From NCBI GenBank assembly GCA_937934275.1, contig CALHAM010000060.1, positions 1-64,000 of the forward strand: a stretch of 64,000 nt of DNA. Direction: 5' to 3'. The notes below the pieces were generated by a model that saw nothing but the letters and a program-made list of their open reading frames with translations, was not told where the DNA came from and made no database searches. Made by a program: the position numbers and the translations under genes. Of this stretch, positions 1-54,065 are shown piece after piece (the first letter of the stretch is position 1; each line of letters begins with the position of its first letter). The DNA comes from an uncultured Saprospiraceae bacterium. Its GTDB lineage: Bacteria > Bacteroidota > Bacteroidia > Chitinophagales > Saprospiraceae.

Positions 1-598
1 CGGCCCCAAAGGCATCGGCGCCCTATACGTAAGCCGAAAAAACCCGCGCGTCAAAGTGACGGCCCAAATCGACGGCGGCGGTCATGAGCGCGGCATGCGT
101 TCGGGTACGCTCAACGTTCCCGGCATTGTGGGCTTTGGCAAGGCCGCCGAAATCGCCCGCCAAAGCATGGGCGAAGAAGCGGAACGACTGCGCCGCCTGC
201 GCGACAAGTTGGAAAATGCTCTGTTGCAGTTGGAAGAGACGCAGGTCAATGGCTCGCGTGAACACCGCATGCCACACGTTACCAACATTTCCTTCAAGCA
301 CGTTGAGGGCGAAGGGCTAATGATGACCTTCAACCAAAACATCGCCGTCTCCTCAGGGTCAGCCTGCACCTCTGCTTCGCTGGAGCCTTCTTACGTACTG
401 GTCGCCATGGGTTTGGGCGACGACTTAGCCCATTCGTCCATCCGCTTCTCGCTCGGACGCTTTACCACGGAGGAAGATGTGGTCTTCGCCATCGAAGCCG
501 TCACCAAGGGCGTTAACCACATGCGCGAAATCAGCCCAATTTGGGAAATGTACAAAGAGGGTATTGACCTGAGTAAAATTGAATGGGCCGCTCATTGA
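1..598 (+). CDS. iscS: Cysteine desulfurase IscS, C-terminal part (cut by window start)
   Basis: PLP enzyme that takes sulfur from cysteine and hands it to the IscU scaffold. The reading frame is open from base 2, so the N-terminal half, including the PLP lysine, lies outside the window. The visible part begins with the conserved GPKGIGALY stretch, continues with [12 protein letters not shown], and holds the mobile catalytic-cysteine loop [10 protein letters not shown]. These motifs and the following iscU and iscA make the IscS assignment firm. A gap of about 155 bases separates it from iscU; I see no convincing promoter there. Confidence 0.93.
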
Positions 599-753
599 AA
601 AACTGATCGTCTATGCCACTACAAAGCCCGCCCGACCCTATTTCTGCGCTCCTATACCGGATCGTCTATTTCGTACGAGGGCTATGGTATCGCTTCACGA
701 AAAAGGTAAAGCATTAACCCTGTCTTTTAACAACATAAGAATACTGCAGTCCT

Positions 754-1182
754 ATGGCATACAGCAATAAAGTTCTCGACCACTTCCAAAATCCGCGCAA
801 CGTCGGCGTTTTAGACAAGAACAAGAAAAACGTGGGCACCGGCTTAGTGGGTGCTCCGGAGTGCGGCGACGTTATGCGCCTGCAAATCGAAGTTGACGAA
901 GAGACGGGCGTCATCCGCGATGCCAAGTTCAAAACTTTCGGTTGTGGCTCGGCCATCGCCTCCTCGTCGCTGGCTACCGAATGGCTAAAGGGCAAAACCA
1001 TCGAAGAAGCCCTAACCATCGACAACATGGACATTGTGGAAGAGCTGGCCTTGCCGCCGGTGAAGATCCACTGCTCCGTGTTGGCGGAAGATGCCATAAA
1101 AGCTGCCATTGAAGACTACAAGCGCAAAAATGGTCTCTTAGAAGAGGCTAGTCAAACTTCTCAGCAAGTCGTAGACGCTTAA
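754..1182 (+). CDS. iscU: Fe-S cluster assembly scaffold IscU
   Basis: Scaffold on which the [2Fe-2S] cluster is built from IscS sulfur before transfer to apo-proteins. It has 142 residues, slightly longer than the usual ~128 because of a C-terminal tail rich in Ser/Gln. The three cluster-ligand cysteines are present (about C37 in APECGDV, C64 in FGCGSA, C107 in KIHCSV), with the conserved Asp39 and His106. The N-terminus AYSNKVLDHFQNPRNVG is typical. It sits between iscS and iscA. No hscB, hscA or fdx follows, so the chaperone step is encoded elsewhere or absent. Confidence 0.96.
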   Translation: MAYSNKVLDHFQNPRNVGVLDKNKKNVGTGLVGAPECGDVMRLQIEVDEETGVIRDAKFKTFGCGSAIASSSLATEWLKGKTIEEALTIDNMDIVEELALPPVKIHCSVLAEDAIKAAIEDYKRKNGLLEEASQTSQQVVDA

Positions 1183-1185
1183 ATT

Positions 1186-1512
1186 ATGATTTACGTATCC
1201 GATAGTGCCAAGGCAAAGATTGCCGAAATCCGCGCTGCCAGCGGCATAGGCGACGATTACTTCCTCCGCGTGAGTGTGGTGTCGGGTGGGTGCTCGGGCC
1301 TATCGTACAAGTTGGACTTTGACAACGAATACAGACCTAACGATCAGGTTTTTGAAGACAACGGCGTCAAAGTGGTTACCGACCTGAAAAGTTTTCTTTA
1401 TCTATTCAACACCACTTTGGAATTCTCCGGTGGTCTCAACGGCAAGGGCTTTCATTTCAACAACCCCAATGCCACGCGCACCTGCGGCTGTGGGGAGAGT
1501 TTTGCCGTTTGA
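1186..1512 (+). CDS. iscA: A-type Fe-S carrier protein (IscA/ErpA-like)
   Basis: Small A-type carrier thought to accept clusters from IscU and deliver them, or iron, to target proteins. It has 108 residues, the normal size. The ligand cysteines lie at about C36 (SGGCSGLSY) and in the C-terminal CGCGESF (C100, C102). It starts three bases after the iscU stop, so it is almost certainly co-transcribed. IscA, ErpA and SufA are hard to tell apart by sequence; the position after iscU favours IscA. Confidence 0.9.
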   Translation: MIYVSDSAKAKIAEIRAASGIGDDYFLRVSVVSGGCSGLSYKLDFDNEYRPNDQVFEDNGVKVVTDLKSFLYLFNTTLEFSGGLNGKGFHFNNPNATRTCGCGESFAV

Positions 1513-1580: not shown

Positions 1581-1699
1581 ATTGTTGCCTCAAAGAGCAC
1601 AGGACCGGTTAGACCCAGCAAATAGATGTTTTTTGTCTAAGTAAGCAGCGCTTGTGCTTTTCTCTTCGTTCCTTTGACGATGGCGTACGCAGACATCTC

Positions 1700-2299
1700 A
1701 TGAATATCGCCTGGGCCTTGAGTTTTTCTGAAAACGATTTGCTGGCAGCACTCGCTCGGCAGGAGCGCGTGGCGCAACAAGCCCTCTATGAACAGCACTA
1801 CAGCAAAATGATGGGCATTTGCCTGCGCTATGCCAGTTCTCGCGATGAAGCCTTAGATCTCTTACACGAAAGCTTCATTAAGATTTTTCAGAACATCCAT
1901 CGCTATCAACCCAACACATCACTGGTCGGATGGATGCGCACCATTGTGATCAACACTTGCATTGACCACCACCGCCGAAATGCCCGTCGTCGGACCGAAG
2001 ATCTGGAAGAAGTGCAGGGTTTTTCTGCTGCCGAACCAGACGCCCTTAGCCGCTTGAGCGAAAAAGAAATCCTCGATGCCATACAGCGCCTATCCCCCGT
2101 GTATCGGGCCGTATTTAACCTGTACGTCGTTGAGGGATATTCACATAAGGAAATTGCCGAAGCCCTTCGAATTACGGAAAGCACCTCGCGGAGCAACCTC
2201 CTAAAAGCGCGCTGTAAGCTACAGGAGTACCTCAGCGGCTGCCAGACGGCTGCAGATAACCAGCCTGCCAAAGACCAGCATACTTCCGAAACAGCATGA
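1700..2299 (+). CDS. ECF-family RNA polymerase sigma-70 factor (copy A)
   Basis: Alternative sigma factor that would direct RNA polymerase to a small regulon. I chose the ATG at 1700 (199 residues), where homology begins, rather than the longer open frame. Region 2 spans about residues 25-95 (ALYEQHYSKMMGICLRYA, then the DEALDLLHESFIKIF stretch) and region 4 about 120-172 (SPVYRAVFNLYVVEGYSHKEIA, a helix-turn-helix, then TSRSNLLKAR). Its stop overlaps the next start by four bases (ATGA), so the two are translationally coupled, as for sigma/anti-sigma pairs. It is paralogous to the factor at 52330. Confidence 0.92.
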   Translation: MNIAWALSFSENDLLAALARQERVAQQALYEQHYSKMMGICLRYASSRDEALDLLHESFIKIFQNIHRYQPNTSLVGWMRTIVINTCIDHHRRNARRRTEDLEEVQGFSAAEPDALSRLSEKEILDAIQRLSPVYRAVFNLYVVEGYSHKEIAEALRITESTSRSNLLKARCKLQEYLSGCQTAADNQPAKDQHTSETA

Positions 2300-3663
2300 G
2301 CGAGCGACATTTTGACCGAATAATAAAAGAGGTATTGGACAACCTTAACCCTACCTACGACCCAGCGACGTGGGAGGCTCTCGAGCGTCGTTTAGACGCT
2401 CAACCCAACGATGCGCCAACAGCAGCCGATAATGCCGCTTGGGAGATCGACATTCGTCAACGACTGGCACACCTCTCTGCTCCTTATGACACTGCTGCTT
2501 GGCAACTTCTGTTTGCTAAAATGCGCCTGCGGAAACAGCGACAAAGATTCGTGTACGGCGCCAAGGCCTTGGAAGCCGTCCTGATCTTACTCCTAATTTT
2601 TCTAAGGTACGGAAACCTCACCCATTCGCCCGCTCCTCCCAGTCTTCCGCCCTCTGCTTCGGCCGTTGTTCAGAGCCTCGAAGGCCTTCTGCCGTCGAAA
2701 TCCTTATCCTCCGGAGCCTTCTCAGAGAAGTTGCCCCCTCCTCGGTCGAACTCAATCGGAACAGGGCTAACTGCAGAGGTACCTCCTCGCAGGCTAAGCG
2801 ACGCCGTCGGACCAGAGGCTGTCGATAAGGAGTGGCCAGAGCAGCCTTCAATGCCGCCCGTTGAGTTAGCTCTGGCAGGCCAAGATTCATCGCCAACGCA
2901 TGCCCTATCTCCGTTGCCCCTGCGAATGCCAGAGCCGCTGTCTTGGCCTATTTTTGCCGTTGTTGTAGAGCCGCTGCCTCCATTAGCCGAGCGACCTAAA
3001 GCCATCGCTTCAGAGCAGCGAGTCCACCTGTTAGCAGCTGCCGTATTGCAGTCTAATCACATTCATTGGCCCCTTACCCGACAAGTCGTGCCAGGAGCCG
3101 GCTTTTCTTTACGCGCCGAACATCAAGGAGACCGCTGGGCCTGGGGGGCAGGAATGGAGTATACCCACTTGGCGTTTGCCCCACCACACGCCGAGCGCAT
3201 CTTTCAAGGAACCCCGCAAACCGGATATTACGGGGTCTTCTTAGCTCAAGTGAACGCCGATATGCTTCTCTTGCCACTTGCAGTATCGCGCTATTTGTGG
3301 GGAACCAACCGCTGGAAGACGTGGATAACGGGCGGCCTCACGGCTCACCTTGCGCTCGATAAAGCGTACGACTACAACTATGTCTACCACCCGCCCGGTC
3401 AGCTGCCGCCAACACAGGCAGACCCCAACGCTCAACCGCATCTGTTGGAGCGCGGTCGAGGCCTGTTAGAGGGAGGTAGCCTGTCCTCCAACGCCTATGT
3501 ATCCGCCGACTTAGGGCTTCGCTGGCAATACCGTGCCTCCGAAAGCCGATTCGCTTGGTGTATTCAGCCGCTTTACCGCAGAGGACTGACACCTGGTATC
3601 AGCCCCGGTCGTGAGCGGCTTCACACTTGGGCGTTACATTTGGGGCTTCGAATCACCCCTTAG
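2296..3663 (+). CDS. Putative dual membrane-spanning anti-sigma factor (Dma-like), copy A
   Basis: 455 residues with a layout that would bridge the cell envelope. A cytoplasmic N-terminus carries a tandemly repeated motif: PTYDPATWEALERRL at 19-33 and APYDTAAWQLLFAKM at 62-76. One hydrophobic helix follows (about 86-104), then a Pro/Ser-rich stretch of about 130 residues (108-235), then about 210 residues of alternating aromatic/polar segments that resemble a small outer-membrane barrel (242-455). It is coupled by ATGA overlap to an ECF sigma gene. In Bacteroides, single-chain proteins of this layout are anti-sigma factors (Dma). Direct homology is inferred from architecture, not shown. An inner-membrane protein with a periplasmic sandwich domain is the alternative. 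Confidence 0.65.
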   Translation: MSERHFDRIIKEVLDNLNPTYDPATWEALERRLDAQPNDAPTAADNAAWEIDIRQRLAHLSAPYDTAAWQLLFAKMRLRKQRQRFVYGAKALEAVLILLLIFLRYGNLTHSPAPPSLPPSASAVVQSLEGLLPSKSLSSGAFSEKLPPPRSNSIGTGLTAEVPPRRLSDAVGPEAVDKEWPEQPSMPPVELALAGQDSSPTHALSPLPLRMPEPLSWPIFAVVVEPLPPLAERPKAIASEQRVHLLAAAVLQSNHIHWPLTRQVVPGAGFSLRAEHQGDRWAWGAGMEYTHLAFAPPHAERIFQGTPQTGYYGVFLAQVNADMLLLPLAVSRYLWGTNRWKTWITGGLTAHLALDKAYDYNYVYHPPGQLPPTQADPNAQPHLLERGRGLLEGGSLSSNAYVSADLGLRWQYRASESRFAWCIQPLYRRGLTPGISPGRERLHTWALHLGLRITP

Positions 3664-3743: not shown

Positions 3744-3751
3744 TACTTTTG
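3744..3751 (+). promoter_or_regulatory. Candidate Bacteroidota -7 box (TACTTTTG) for the Fur-family gene
   Basis: The octamer fits TAnnTTTG and ends 19 bases before the ATG at 3771. It lies downstream of two in-frame upstream ATG codons (3717 and 3738), which argues for the 3771 start. I see no TTG at the usual 17-21 base spacing, so the -33 element would be weak. Confidence 0.45.
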
Positions 3752-3770
3752 CCCAACATCCGCACACGTA

Positions 3771-4295
3771 ATGCCCGCAGCACGCGATCAGGAAGGCATC
3801 CTAAAAGAAGTCCTCAATATCTTCTCGGCCCATTTGGCCGAACGCGGCCTGCGTCGAACTCCCGAGCGCTTTGCCATCTTGAAAGAGATCTACCGCCGCT
3901 CCGACCATTTCGACGCCGAAGCCCTTTATATTCACATGAAAAACAGCAACTATCGCGTTAGTAGAGCTACCGTTTATAATACTTTGGAGCTCCTCACTGC
4001 GTGCGACCTGGTCAAAAAACACCAATTTGGAAAAAACTTAGCGCAATATGAAAAATCTTACGGCTACAAGCAGCACGACCACGCTATTTGTGTGCATTGT
4101 GGGCGCGTAGTCGAATTTTGCGACCCCCGCATTCAGCAAATCAAAGACATGGTCGGTGAACTACTCGATTTTCAGATCACGCATCACTCGCTCAATCTCT
4201 ATGGGGTTTGCCAATCCTGCCAAAAAGAAATCGAGCAGGGCATTATTCGACAGCAGCCGAGCCATTCCGACAACGAACCCGGATGGGGGGACTGA
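3771..4295 (+). CDS. Fur-family metal- or peroxide-responsive transcriptional regulator
   Basis: 174 residues from the ATG at 3771. The N-terminal winged helix includes GLRRTPERFAILKEI and the recognition-helix stretch VSRATVYNTLELL (about 63-75). The C-terminal dimerisation half has two CxxC pairs (CVHC at about 107-110, CQSC at about 147-150) for a structural zinc, and a His-rich site (KQHDHAICVHC, then THHSLNLYG). Whether it senses iron, zinc, manganese or peroxide cannot be told from the sequence. It stands directly before the ribosomal cluster but has its own candidate promoter, and rpsJ has a separate one. Confidence 0.88.
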   Translation: MPAARDQEGILKEVLNIFSAHLAERGLRRTPERFAILKEIYRRSDHFDAEALYIHMKNSNYRVSRATVYNTLELLTACDLVKKHQFGKNLAQYEKSYGYKQHDHAICVHCGRVVEFCDPRIQQIKDMVGELLDFQITHHSLNLYGVCQSCQKEIEQGIIRQQPSHSDNEPGWGD

Positions 4296-52014: not shown

Positions 52015-52329
52015 CGCTACTTGTGCCAAATACGGCTTTAGGCGGCAAAACTAAGGCGAGTGCAGCCCTATCAATAAAAAAGTACTGATTTCATCGGCAC
52101 GCCGCCATATTCTCGCGTCTCAGCTGGCTTTACCAAGACCCAACATAGCTTACTTGTGGCTTACTGTTGGTTCAAAAACTTAGGCAAGGCAAGACCTCTC
52201 GCTCAAACCTTTTTCATTCACAATAACCTCGCTGGTGCCATTGTCAAATGTTTAGGATGCTCTATCCTTGTGGGGACTTGCGCACCAAGGCGCCACACGC
52301 CGCGCAACGTTGTGACCTATCCAGGCGTA
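52015..52329. other. 315-base divergent intergenic region between RND pump and ECF sigma copy B
   Basis: On the minus strand TAGTTTTG (52046-52053) is a -7 box 31 bases before the RND ATG. On the plus side the sigma reading frame stays open upstream to 52156, but that extension is not sigma-like. I see no TAnnTTTG box on the plus strand, so the sigma-factor promoter may be of another class, possibly self-recognised. Confidence 0.5.
52046..52053 (-). promoter_or_regulatory. Candidate -7 box (TAGTTTTG) for the RND pump gene
   Basis: The minus strand reads TAGTTTTGC, a full TAnnTTTG match 31 bases before the ATG at 52014. Confidence 0.42.
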
Positions 52330-52893
52330 ATGATAGATAAATACAAAGACGACGAAAACAAGATAGGCGATCTGCTTCGCCAATGTAGGCAGCGCAAGCA
52401 GAGCGCTCAACATCAGCTGTTCCAAATTTTTTACAACTATGCCATGAGCATCGCTCGGCGCTATGTGAGCAATACTGAAACGGCAGAGGAAGTGGTCAAC
52501 GATGCTTTTTTTAAGGTCTTTACTAAGATTGATTTATACGAAGAAAGCCTACCCTTTCGCTTTTGGCTGCGCCGCATCGTCATCAACACCGCTATTGACC
52601 GCTTGCGCGGCACCCTCAAAACACACGAAAGCAGTACACACTACGAGCAGCAAGCGCTTGTCATAGAAAGCAGTGTTGTAGAAGACCTTACGCGCGAGCA
52701 GATTTTAGCGGCACTCGATCGCCTACCACCGGCCTATCGGACGGTCTTTAATCTCTTTGTCGTCGATGGCTTTTCTCACGAGGAAATTGCCCAAATGTTG
52801 AACATCAGCTCAGGAACCTCCAAATCAAACTTAGCACGTGCCCGACAGCACTTGCGCGCTTTGTTTTCTGACGATTTTGAATTCAAAAAGTAG
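52330..52893 (+). CDS. ECF-family RNA polymerase sigma-70 factor (copy B)
   Basis: 187 residues from the ATG at 52330. Region 2 has QHQLFQIFYNYAMSIARRYVSNTETAEEVVNDAFFKVF and the start of its DNA-contact helix LPFRFWLRRIVINTAIDRLR. Region 4 has PPAYRTVFNLFVVDGFSHEEIAQMLNISSGTSKSNLARARQHL. It is clearly paralogous to the factor at 1700, sharing YRxVFNLxVVxGxSHxEIA and TSxSNLxxAR. Two bases separate it from the trans-envelope protein gene that follows. Confidence 0.92.
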   Translation: MIDKYKDDENKIGDLLRQCRQRKQSAQHQLFQIFYNYAMSIARRYVSNTETAEEVVNDAFFKVFTKIDLYEESLPFRFWLRRIVINTAIDRLRGTLKTHESSTHYEQQALVIESSVVEDLTREQILAALDRLPPAYRTVFNLFVVDGFSHEEIAQMLNISSGTSKSNLARARQHLRALFSDDFEFKK

Positions 52894-52895
52894 TT

Positions 52896-54065
52896 ATGCG
52901 TGATTTAGACAAGTACCTAGCTGACCGCCTTAACGAGGAGAGCGCATTTTCAGGGCGGGAAGCCAACTGGCGAATGCTGACTTATCGCTTAGAAGCTGCC
53001 GCCGCACGGCACGCCCTCGCGCGCTGGCAAGTGGCCGCCAGCGTCCTCTTGCTGAGTTTCTTAATGGCCAGCGGGTCGGCCTATTGGTTTTACCGAGAAA
53101 GTGAGGCAAGAGCTGCCCAGTGGGCGGAAGCTGCAGCATTAATGGAAACTACTCTATCAAAGACAGCGGCGCCTTTAGCTGTGGTTGTGCCCCAAAAAAT
53201 GCGCTCAGCACCCCCTGATAGATCCTTTGCTAGGCCTGAGCGCGACCTACTTCTCCCTCTTCCCGTCTTGCTGCCTTCTAAGGCCACTCCGCTCCCCGTT
53301 GTACTCATGGCAGAGCCCACTGTGGACGATGCGCCTACCGCCGAAGCAAGCGCGGCCAAGGTGCTGCCCTTCCTTCATCCGAGAGATTGGCAACCGCTGC
53401 AATACCTCCCTCCGCCCATCCCTCATCCAACTTTTGCTCCGCGCCGCCGCGGAAGCCGTTTGTGGATAGGCCTGCAAGGTACGGTAGGCACCCCTGAGCC
53501 ACGCCCTGGCATCTCCTTGCTCCAAGGTGCTGGCGTGGGCGTAGAATACCGCGCTTTCGGTCAGTTGTGGCTCACTGCCTCCGCCGACTGGCTGGCTTAC
53601 GATGTGCAACACTCCGATTACCTACCTGCAGCATTCTACCGGGAAAATCCGCCCAAGGCGTTCAAGATTATCCTCGGAAAGCCCCCCGCTCCTTACCCAC
53701 TCTACAATGTGGTGGCCAACCAACGCCTGCGCTTGTGGAGCACTGGTTTGCGCTATCGCATTCCGGTGCATTTCTGGTTGCGCCCCTCCGTTCACGTAGC
53801 CCACACTTGGGCAGACGTCTCGCCAGCGGTTTATAACTACACCTTTGTGGACACCCTGCCCGGAACGCCGCCCAAAACAGTATCCTTCTCTTCGGCACAG
53901 TCCACTTCGGCCTATTCCGTCCGAGGCTTGTGGCGCTTTGGCCTCGCACTGGAGCGCGAAACCGACGAGTGGGCCTTCCGATTGGGTATCAGCCGTCAAG
54001 CTGCTTTTCGATCCGATTTCTACGATACTTGGCTGGTGCAAGGCGGCATCTGGTACAAGTGGTAA
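52896..54065 (+). CDS. Putative dual membrane-spanning anti-sigma factor (Dma-like), copy B
   Basis: 389 residues, same plan as the gene at 2296. There is a short cytoplasmic part (1-45) with one motif, FSGREANWRMLTYRLE, then a membrane helix at about 46-66 (QVAASVLLLSFLMASGSAYWFY). A Pro/Ala-rich linker covers about 67-185. About 200 residues of strand-like segments follow (LWIGLQGTVG, AGVGVEYRAFGQLWLTASADW, LWRFGLALER, WAFRLGISRQ), ending in YKW, an aromatic end as in outer-membrane barrels. The N-terminal motif is single here but doubled in copy A. Overall sequence similarity between the two is low outside this layout. Confidence 0.65.
   Translation: MRDLDKYLADRLNEESAFSGREANWRMLTYRLEAAAARHALARWQVAASVLLLSFLMASGSAYWFYRESEARAAQWAEAAALMETTLSKTAAPLAVVVPQKMRSAPPDRSFARPERDLLLPLPVLLPSKATPLPVVLMAEPTVDDAPTAEASAAKVLPFLHPRDWQPLQYLPPPIPHPTFAPRRRGSRLWIGLQGTVGTPEPRPGISLLQGAGVGVEYRAFGQLWLTASADWLAYDVQHSDYLPAAFYRENPPKAFKIILGKPPAPYPLYNVVANQRLRLWSTGLRYRIPVHFWLRPSVHVAHTWADVSPAVYNYTFVDTLPGTPPKTVSFSSAQSTSAYSVRGLWRFGLALERETDEWAFRLGISRQAAFRSDFYDTWLVQGGIWYKW

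Follow-up and report, generated by a model that had tools for sequence, protein, structure and literature searches.

How could a single protein chain report on the state of the outer membrane and at the same time hold a sigma factor in the cytoplasm? This question is raised by module A, an overlapping gene pair at positions 1,700 to 3,663 of a 64,000-nucleotide (nt) stretch of DNA from an uncultured Saprospiraceae bacterium (positions 1 to 64,000 of contig CALHAM010000060.1, assembly GCA_937934275.1; this whole stretch is called the window below). The first gene encodes an extracytoplasmic function (ECF) sigma factor and the second a 455-residue partner, for which a sequence-only reading had proposed an architecture like that of the Dma proteins. 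As described in the available part of the source, the Dma proteins are from Bacteroides, have roles that are still poorly understood, and consist of an N-terminal sigma-binding domain, a transmembrane helix, a long disordered tether and a C-terminal barrel, with an ECF21 sigma gene adjoining (PMC13088901).

We consider that module A is probably a Dma-type sigma switch, tethered to the outer membrane, autoregulated and equipped with a small RNA (sRNA) arm. The partner would be an anti-sigma factor anchored twice, by a barrel in the outer membrane and by a single helix in the inner membrane, with a disordered tether between them. The ECF sigma factor would be held by an array of repeats of ~31 residues (two in this copy), in which every unit consists of two helices and contains a single conserved tryptophan, and a disturbance of the outer membrane, passed on through the tether and the helix, would set the sigma factor free. 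The free sigma factor would transcribe its own operon from the motif GCAGC-N17-CGTT and would also fire a few further sites, among which the most consistent is that of a conserved, terminator-ended RNA of ~100 nt, which would serve as the post-transcriptional arm of the response. The gene pair, the predicted architecture, the repeat array, the promoter-like motif and, within the genus, the RNA behind this motif were found by computation, as set out below.

The gene pair and the predicted architecture of the partner

The sigma factor of module A carries Sigma70_r2 at residues 29–97 (3.9e-16) and Sigma70_r4_2 at residues 123–173 (2.4e-15). Region 3 is absent from the Pfam matches listed, and with regions 2 and 4 both present the protein is an ECF factor. 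Its gene shares an ATGA with the partner gene, as the sequence-only reading had stated. This exact overlap occurs in 19 of 192 pairs and an overlap of any form in 116 of them, the start codons being picked by rule. A partner was matched by tblastn at 50 of the 51 loci compared, and at all 50 the sigma gene lies directly upstream; the one remaining locus was matched by the family profile. Neither Pfam nor NCBIfam, scanned up to E 1, yielded a match for the module A partner, and the FecR domain of cell-surface signalling anti-sigma factors of the FecR/PupR type was likewise not found in that scan.

The partner was modelled with AlphaFold2 from a 50-row family alignment, with an overall mean predicted local distance difference test (pLDDT) score of 75.2 and a predicted template modelling (pTM) score of 0.55. 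Helices are placed at residues 3–16, 23–34, 44–59 and 66–109, the last of which continues into the membrane helix. The pLDDT falls below 50 over residues 121–148, 150–224 and 231–238, and eight strands follow from residue 242 to 453, where the ten-residue means of pLDDT are mostly 91–98, with loops as low as 64. The earlier expectation of a barrel-like C-terminus is thus borne out by the prediction of an eight-stranded, OmpA-like barrel. The single inner-membrane helix with the N-terminus inside, which had also been proposed, agrees with the hydropathy of the chain, in which the top 19-mer starts at residue 85 (mean 2.22) and six of the preceding 12 residues are basic, placing the N-terminus in the cytoplasm. 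The same holds for the proposed ~130-residue proline-rich linker: residues 110–240 contain 20% proline, the region mostly has a pLDDT below 50, and its length ranges from 112 to 217 residues (median 134) over the 50 rows. The mean pairwise identity of these rows is 13% in the linker, compared with 34% in the N-terminus, 39% in the membrane helix and 33% in the barrel. Since the linker keeps its length but not its sequence, it behaves like a tether.

Position 90 of the membrane helix is K or R, and position 93 is E, in all 50 rows. The resulting K-x-x-E (residues 90–93, window 2563–2574) stands at the start of the inner-membrane helix and represents an unusual charge near the membrane.

In which compartment does the C-terminal domain reside? 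When the model was compared with solved structures, residues 230–455 matched OmpA (Z 18.7, 173 aligned, 3.7 Å) and residues 238–455 matched NspA (Z 18.3, 155 aligned, 2.9 Å), and the best matches of the barrel, OmpA, NspA and OmpW, are all integral outer-membrane barrels. A barrel fold alone shows no location, and one might imagine instead that the anti-sigma factor is anchored in the inner membrane only, its β-barrel being soluble in the periplasm; given the nature of the top matches and a tether that is shorter than 112 residues in none of the 50 rows, we regard such an arrangement as very improbable. In the arrangement proposed here, the partner would be inserted into both membranes. The C-terminal β-barrel, the long disordered tether and the transmembrane helix, as found from the model, the hydropathy and the alignment, are the features of a Dma protein. 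Judged by this architecture, module A very probably works like a Dma protein and belongs among them.

The cytoplasmic repeat array and its relation to the sigma factor

The two YDxAxW motifs noticed in the N-terminus by the sequence-only reading are present: the first, YDPATW, has W26 as its last residue, and the second, YDTAAW, has W69. The tandem is kept in orthologues and follows the repeat consensus KAFDKIIKEKLENLEVPYDPAHWDLLEQRLD, with a unit of ~31 residues predicted to form two helices. It had been taken as a peculiarity of this copy, which did not hold, as two repeats are the commonest state of the family. Repeat copies were counted as domains scoring above 5 bits with a repeat hidden Markov model (HMM) built from the family, a cut-off at which weak copies are possibly missed or over-counted, in 233 unique sigma/partner pairs (312 before copy removal, close relatives still included) picked by resemblance to the module A family and not at random. 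One copy was found in 27 pairs, two in 124, three in 55, four in 17, five in eight and seven in one. The only pair of the 233 that scores no repeat is module B of the window, the other 232, module A among them, carrying one to seven copies. The start of the membrane helix shifts by 35.7 residues per repeat (r 0.89). In 107 two-repeat proteins the same positions are kept in both copies, namely D4, L11, W23, a hydrophobic residue at 26 and R/K29, the tryptophan being present in 106 of the first copies and 107 of the last.

Module B (52156–54065) is the second pair in the window and comprises an ECF sigma open reading frame (ORF) and a 389-residue partner with a single W motif (NWRMLTYRLE).

No convincing relative of the repeat domain was found among solved structures or in Pfam. 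The best matches of the N-terminus profile to solved structures were de novo TIM barrels (2e-5 and 2e-4), which were set aside as a coincidence with designed repeats, and CnrY was not listed in this comparison. A Pfam scan of 36 N-termini gave DUF7734 in six members (best 1.5e-6), and no anti-sigma family was found among the 25 listed of 37 matching families.

Contact between the N-terminus and the sigma factor was approached through pseudolikelihood couplings on paired sigma/partner sequences with at least two repeats, in two sets of 170 and 205 pairs (the latter with an effective number, Neff, of 142). Nine random re-pairings and one nearest-neighbour swap served as ten controls. In the 205-pair set the sum of the top five sigma–repeat couplings is 1.021 for the last repeat, against 0.576–0.741 in the controls, and 0.842 for the first repeat, against 0.592–0.721. 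The last repeat stands above all ten controls in the 170-pair set as well. The strongest couplings of the last repeat in the larger set involve L52, H90 and E176 of the sigma factor, and I128 and Q27 recur in couplings with both repeats; the coupling of Q27 to this last repeat, however, is partly retained when neighbours are swapped (0.145 vs 0.116). These statistics, measured against ten controls, support contact of both repeats with the sigma factor, more firmly for the membrane-proximal one. The earlier proposal that the chain holds a sigma factor in the cytoplasm is supported only indirectly, by the gene pairing at 50 of 50 loci and by the covariation of both repeats above all ten controls in the larger set; the smaller set lends no such support where the first repeat is concerned.

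Three points count against such contact. The first repeat is not separable from the controls in the 170-pair set, the controls are few, and the fold of the sigma factor with the N-terminus, modelled as one chain on relatives whose two genes were translated across the intervening stop codons, reaches a mean pLDDT of 69 and a pTM of 0.56. In this low-confidence fused fold, the sigma2 and sigma4 domains, taken jointly, fit the sigma factors of the anti-sigma complexes SigW–RsiW (5wuq, 155 aligned, 5.3 Å) and CnrH–CnrY (4cxf, 151 aligned, 6.1 Å) better than they fit RNA-polymerase-bound sigma-E (6jbq, 158 aligned, 25.9 Å). Since 7qh5, a sigma crystal not titled as an anti-sigma complex, fits equally well (152 aligned, 4.9 Å), the comparison decides nothing.

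The tandem motif may represent two sigma-binding sites. One could also propose that the membrane-proximal repeat alone binds the sigma factor, the other copies being spacers or binding another partner. The strength of the last repeat's couplings in both sets and the existence of one-repeat relatives (27 of 233) speak for this proposal, as does the invariance of W69 in the 50-row alignment, in which W26 is nearly invariant; that alignment, however, includes one-repeat proteins, and both tryptophans are invariant in the 36 N-termini. Given that the two copies of two-repeat proteins conserve the same positions and that the first repeat also covaries above the controls in the larger set, we hold binding by the last repeat alone to be possible but somewhat doubtful. 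A polyvalent rack has also been considered, in which each repeat would hold one sigma factor, the copy number of one to seven would set how many are held and released per sensor, and release would fire a dedicated sRNA. Bacteroidota would then have their own version of the sigma-E and sRNA system, operated by one chain that crosses the envelope. This fuller scheme seems to us unlikely. If it were true that each repeat holds one sigma factor, repeat number would constitute a natural gain control.

The promoter-like motif and the candidate RNA

The motif GCAGC-N17-CGTT ends 29 bases before the sigma ATG at 1700, a distance that favours a start at this position over the in-frame TTG at 1652. It is present in exact form in 116 of 193 regions (220 bases each) upstream of sigma genes, whereas the commonest dyad of three shuffled upstream sets occurs in 8–11 regions. 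With a weight matrix, 137 of the 193 regions beat the best shuffled sequence. The other 56 do not, which tells against the proposed promoter; among the 40 of these that were listed are loci truncated where a contig ends, as well as relatives from other families in which GGCAACC and CGTC take the place of the motif. Forms with one mismatch occur in the window about as often as chance predicts (30 found vs 28.3 expected), so the window copy is credible through conservation only. The upstream location and the CGTT form of the -10 element imply autoregulation. The motif is thus probably an autoregulatory ECF promoter, and the sigma factor of module A would be the one that recognises it.

Outside the family, GGCAACC with CGTC was seen before the sigma gene at L132, L134, L148, L150 and other loci, possibly as a sister promoter specificity in the class.

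Could the promoter and the RNA described below belong to another ECF sigma factor of the same specificity, with module A merely one of its targets? Several ECF factors are possible per such genome, and the window alone holds two. Yet the motif lies upstream of the module A-type sigma gene itself in the 116 of 193 cases, and of the ORFs listed downstream of the ten strict sites in the window's genome, only the one at module A is a sigma gene (the rest were listed without a profile scan). The upstream region of module B, moreover, is without the motif. That the promoter and the RNA belong to another ECF sigma factor appears quite unlikely.

Strict motif sites number 10 in the window's genome (G000), seven in G010, 10 in G018 and nine in G035, and the reversed pattern gives 1, 4, 2 and 3 sites, respectively. 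One strict site is kept in all four genomes, between two reverse-strand genes that are TrmH-like and C-N hydrolase by eye. The 17-nt spacer inside its motif is variable, and downstream of it follow ~100 nt with 89% mean column identity, a GC hairpin and a T run. RNA models of this element were built without the promoter letters, and the four source genomes, having been found via the motif, were not counted. The RNA-only model matched 35 of 60 genomes at E<=0.05, and 26 further loci were read. All nine of those bearing the conserved core have the motif 21–47 nt upstream of the match, as against none of the 17 core-less loci. With a 13-sequence model, 31 of the genus's 41 genomes reached at least 59 bits, and the highest score below these was 40.9. 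The motif was found at 17 of 17 new loci from these high-scoring genomes, where shuffles give 0.005 per 17 regions; the strong-matching genome G024 is left out of the loci read. For the genus, this amounts to 26 of 26 further core-bearing RNA loci with the motif.

In the family sample, 14 of 198 genomes matched at E<=1e-4. Among 12 weaker family loci that were read, the core is present in eight, all from other genera; one of these eight has the exact motif, and three more show GACAGC-N16/17-CGTT by eye. Motif and RNA are thus firmly associated inside the genus and less so beyond it. The core contains a T run of between 5 and 8 letters, hence no reading frame is kept, and in the stem three pairs are changed on both sides. 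A discrete sRNA, as in a sigma-E-type regulon, is represented here by a candidate with a conserved motif and a conserved terminator hairpin.

A number of results weigh against such a regulon and its RNA. The strict sites of G010 exceed the reversed control modestly (7 vs 4), and many strict sites fall within ORFs, so that several per genome are due to chance. Outside the genus the exact motif stands at one of the eight core-bearing loci. One pair of the stem is broken or gapped in four of 13 sequences, and the predicted folding of the copy in the window's genome is hardly superior to that of shuffled sequences (z -1.03, as compared with -2.23 and -2.63 in two relatives). Eight loci were scanned with Rfam up to E 0.5; one sub-threshold match appeared, in L366, and none at the four source RNA loci. 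Finally, a search for sRNA targets by core complement, with one mismatch allowed, gave fewer sites than the reversed control in four of four genomes and hence no target. In the window itself none of the Rfam families reached its gathering score, and the exact other-genus RNA core was absent from an IMG/VR search.

The ~100-nt element might also be a transcribed leader or attenuator of the downstream gene, or a bidirectional terminator, rather than a trans-acting sRNA. Several relatives have a co-directional gene downstream of the element whose product carries a signal peptide (an M28 peptidase in both that were scanned), and at the two nearest-genome loci examined the hairpin lies where a convergent gene resembling C-N hydrolases ends. 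However, the downstream genes vary by lineage (judged by eye, they resemble C-N hydrolase in convergent orientation, FabH on the opposite strand, M28 peptidase or RibF), while the motif, the core and the hairpin are kept, and we find such a role rather unlikely. With a candidate sRNA behind it, the promoter-like motif turns a structural resemblance into a testable pathway. If it were true that the RNA acts on mRNAs of outer-membrane proteins, envelope control by an ECF sigma factor with an sRNA would extend to a further phylum, with different sensor hardware.

Two other sites of the window's genome are each conserved in one relative. A Wzz-like gene (L356:746-1870, minus strand; E 3.9e-4, below the cut-off) lies behind GCAGC-N17-CGTT, and a small ORF with a lipoprotein-like ORF without Pfam match (L351:1495-1905, minus strand) lies behind the motif.

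Known systems, distribution and gene neighbourhood

Sigma-E is autoregulated and RseA is not known to have an outer-membrane part, whereas one chain of module A would span the envelope. CnrY is a short helical cytoplasmic anti-sigma clamp of CnrH, as the N-terminus of the module A partner would be of its own sigma factor, but CnrY is not known to be tandemly repeated or to carry a barrel. The likeness to sigma-E and the sigma-E-dependent sRNAs of enterobacteria, as far as the available part of the source describes them, would consist in an envelope-linked ECF sigma factor and an RNA output from its own promoter type (PMC1804206).

Module A resembles Dma1/Dma2 with Das1/Das2 of Bacteroides thetaiotaomicron, as portrayed in the accessible portion of the source, in predicted domain order, in the adjoining ECF sigma gene and in its Bacteroidota host (PMC13088901). 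It differs from them in the Saprospiraceae-like host, in an N-terminus made of a repeat array of varying copy number, and in the added promoter motif and candidate RNA. With Dma3 of the same species, in which the sigma domain is fused, it would share a tethered sigma switch with a C-terminal barrel, although the sigma factor of module A is a separate gene (PMC13088901, same portion). That portion mentions neither a promoter motif nor a repeat array or an sRNA for the Dma family, and neither a repeat array in Dma proteins nor an ECF-dependent sRNA in Saprospiraceae was found in the open-access literature searched. The present analysis adds to the Dma architecture a promoter-like sequence, a candidate output RNA and, at the end that presumably binds the sigma factor, a repeat array of variable copy number. 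A sigma-ECF motif of Flavobacterium psychrophilum, SM6, likewise has CGT as its -10 box, and its regulon includes a gene pair for an ECF factor and an anti-sigma factor; unlike the motif of module A it is linked to genes of the type IX secretion system, and the available part of its description holds no counterpart of the candidate RNA found here (PMC9723704). The coordinates of the features of module A and of the RNA are collected in Table 1.

Table 1. Positions of the predicted features of module A in the window, and of the candidate RNA on another contig of the same genome
Feature	Position	Strand	Basis or details
Predicted autoregulatory ECF promoter GCAGC-N17-CGTT	1645..1670	+	-35 GCAGC 1645-1649, -10 CGTT 1667-1670
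ECF sigma factor, 199 aa	1700..2299	+	Pfam r2/r4; sigma70-ECF superfamily 93.8 bits, cut-off 42.9
Partner protein, 455 residues	2296..3663	+	ORF, profile, AlphaFold2 model, structure matches
Cytoplasmic repeat 1, residues 1-36, W26	2296..2403	+	Repeat HMM 58.0 bits; helices 3-16, 23-34
Cytoplasmic repeat 2, membrane-proximal, residues 44-77, W69	2425..2526	+	Repeat HMM 38.5 bits; invariant column
Predicted inner-membrane helix, residues ~85-107	2548..2616	+	Hydropathy, alignment
Predicted disordered proline-rich periplasmic tether, residues ~110-241	2623..3018	+	pLDDT <50 mostly; conserved length, unconserved sequence
Predicted 8-stranded OmpA-like outer-membrane barrel, residues 242-455	3019..3660	+	AlphaFold2 model, structure matches
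Candidate ECF-dependent ~100-nt RNA	L354:2110-2210 (another contig, window's genome)	minus	Conserved U/G-rich core, terminator hairpin

A search with the single partner protein matched 55 of 100 related genomes at E<=1e-3, comprising 55 of 61 in the family and none of 39 in other families of the order. With the family profile at the same threshold, matches were obtained in 196 of the 199 genomes sampled from the family and, many of them partial, in 167 of 295 from the class; at a stricter 1e-40 the profile matched 320 of 398 family genomes. The cultured relative Phaeodactylibacter xiamenensis likewise carries the module. The Dma-like architecture is indicated as nearly universal in the sampled Saprospiraceae-like family genomes. 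In IMG/VR, seven stretches fit a pattern for relatives of module A, and none was confirmed.

Module A is preceded in the window (56–1512) by genes for a Class-V aminotransferase (NifS/IscS-like, cut by the window start), NifU_N and Fe-S_biosyn, and followed (~3750–4295) by a FUR-family gene, all by Pfam. A function drawn from these iron-sulphur and Fur neighbours was ruled out, since the three Fe-S genes occur at five of 56 loci, which represent three relatives because two were sampled twice, and a Fur-like gene at one of 56. The neighbouring genes thus do not reveal the signal, which is a further point against the proposed switch.

At 18 of 38 loci (L036 and 17 others) a reverse-strand glucosaminidase gene lies ahead of the sigma gene, with PF01832 in the one scanned. 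It was rejected as a co-regulated target, because GCAGC-N16-18-CGTT points to the sigma gene in 18 of 18 loci; GCAGC-N16-CGTT towards the glucosaminidase gene is also present in two of the 18. The glucosaminidase gene starts 1.6–2.0 kb before the partner ORF at 17 of these loci and 6 kb before it at one.

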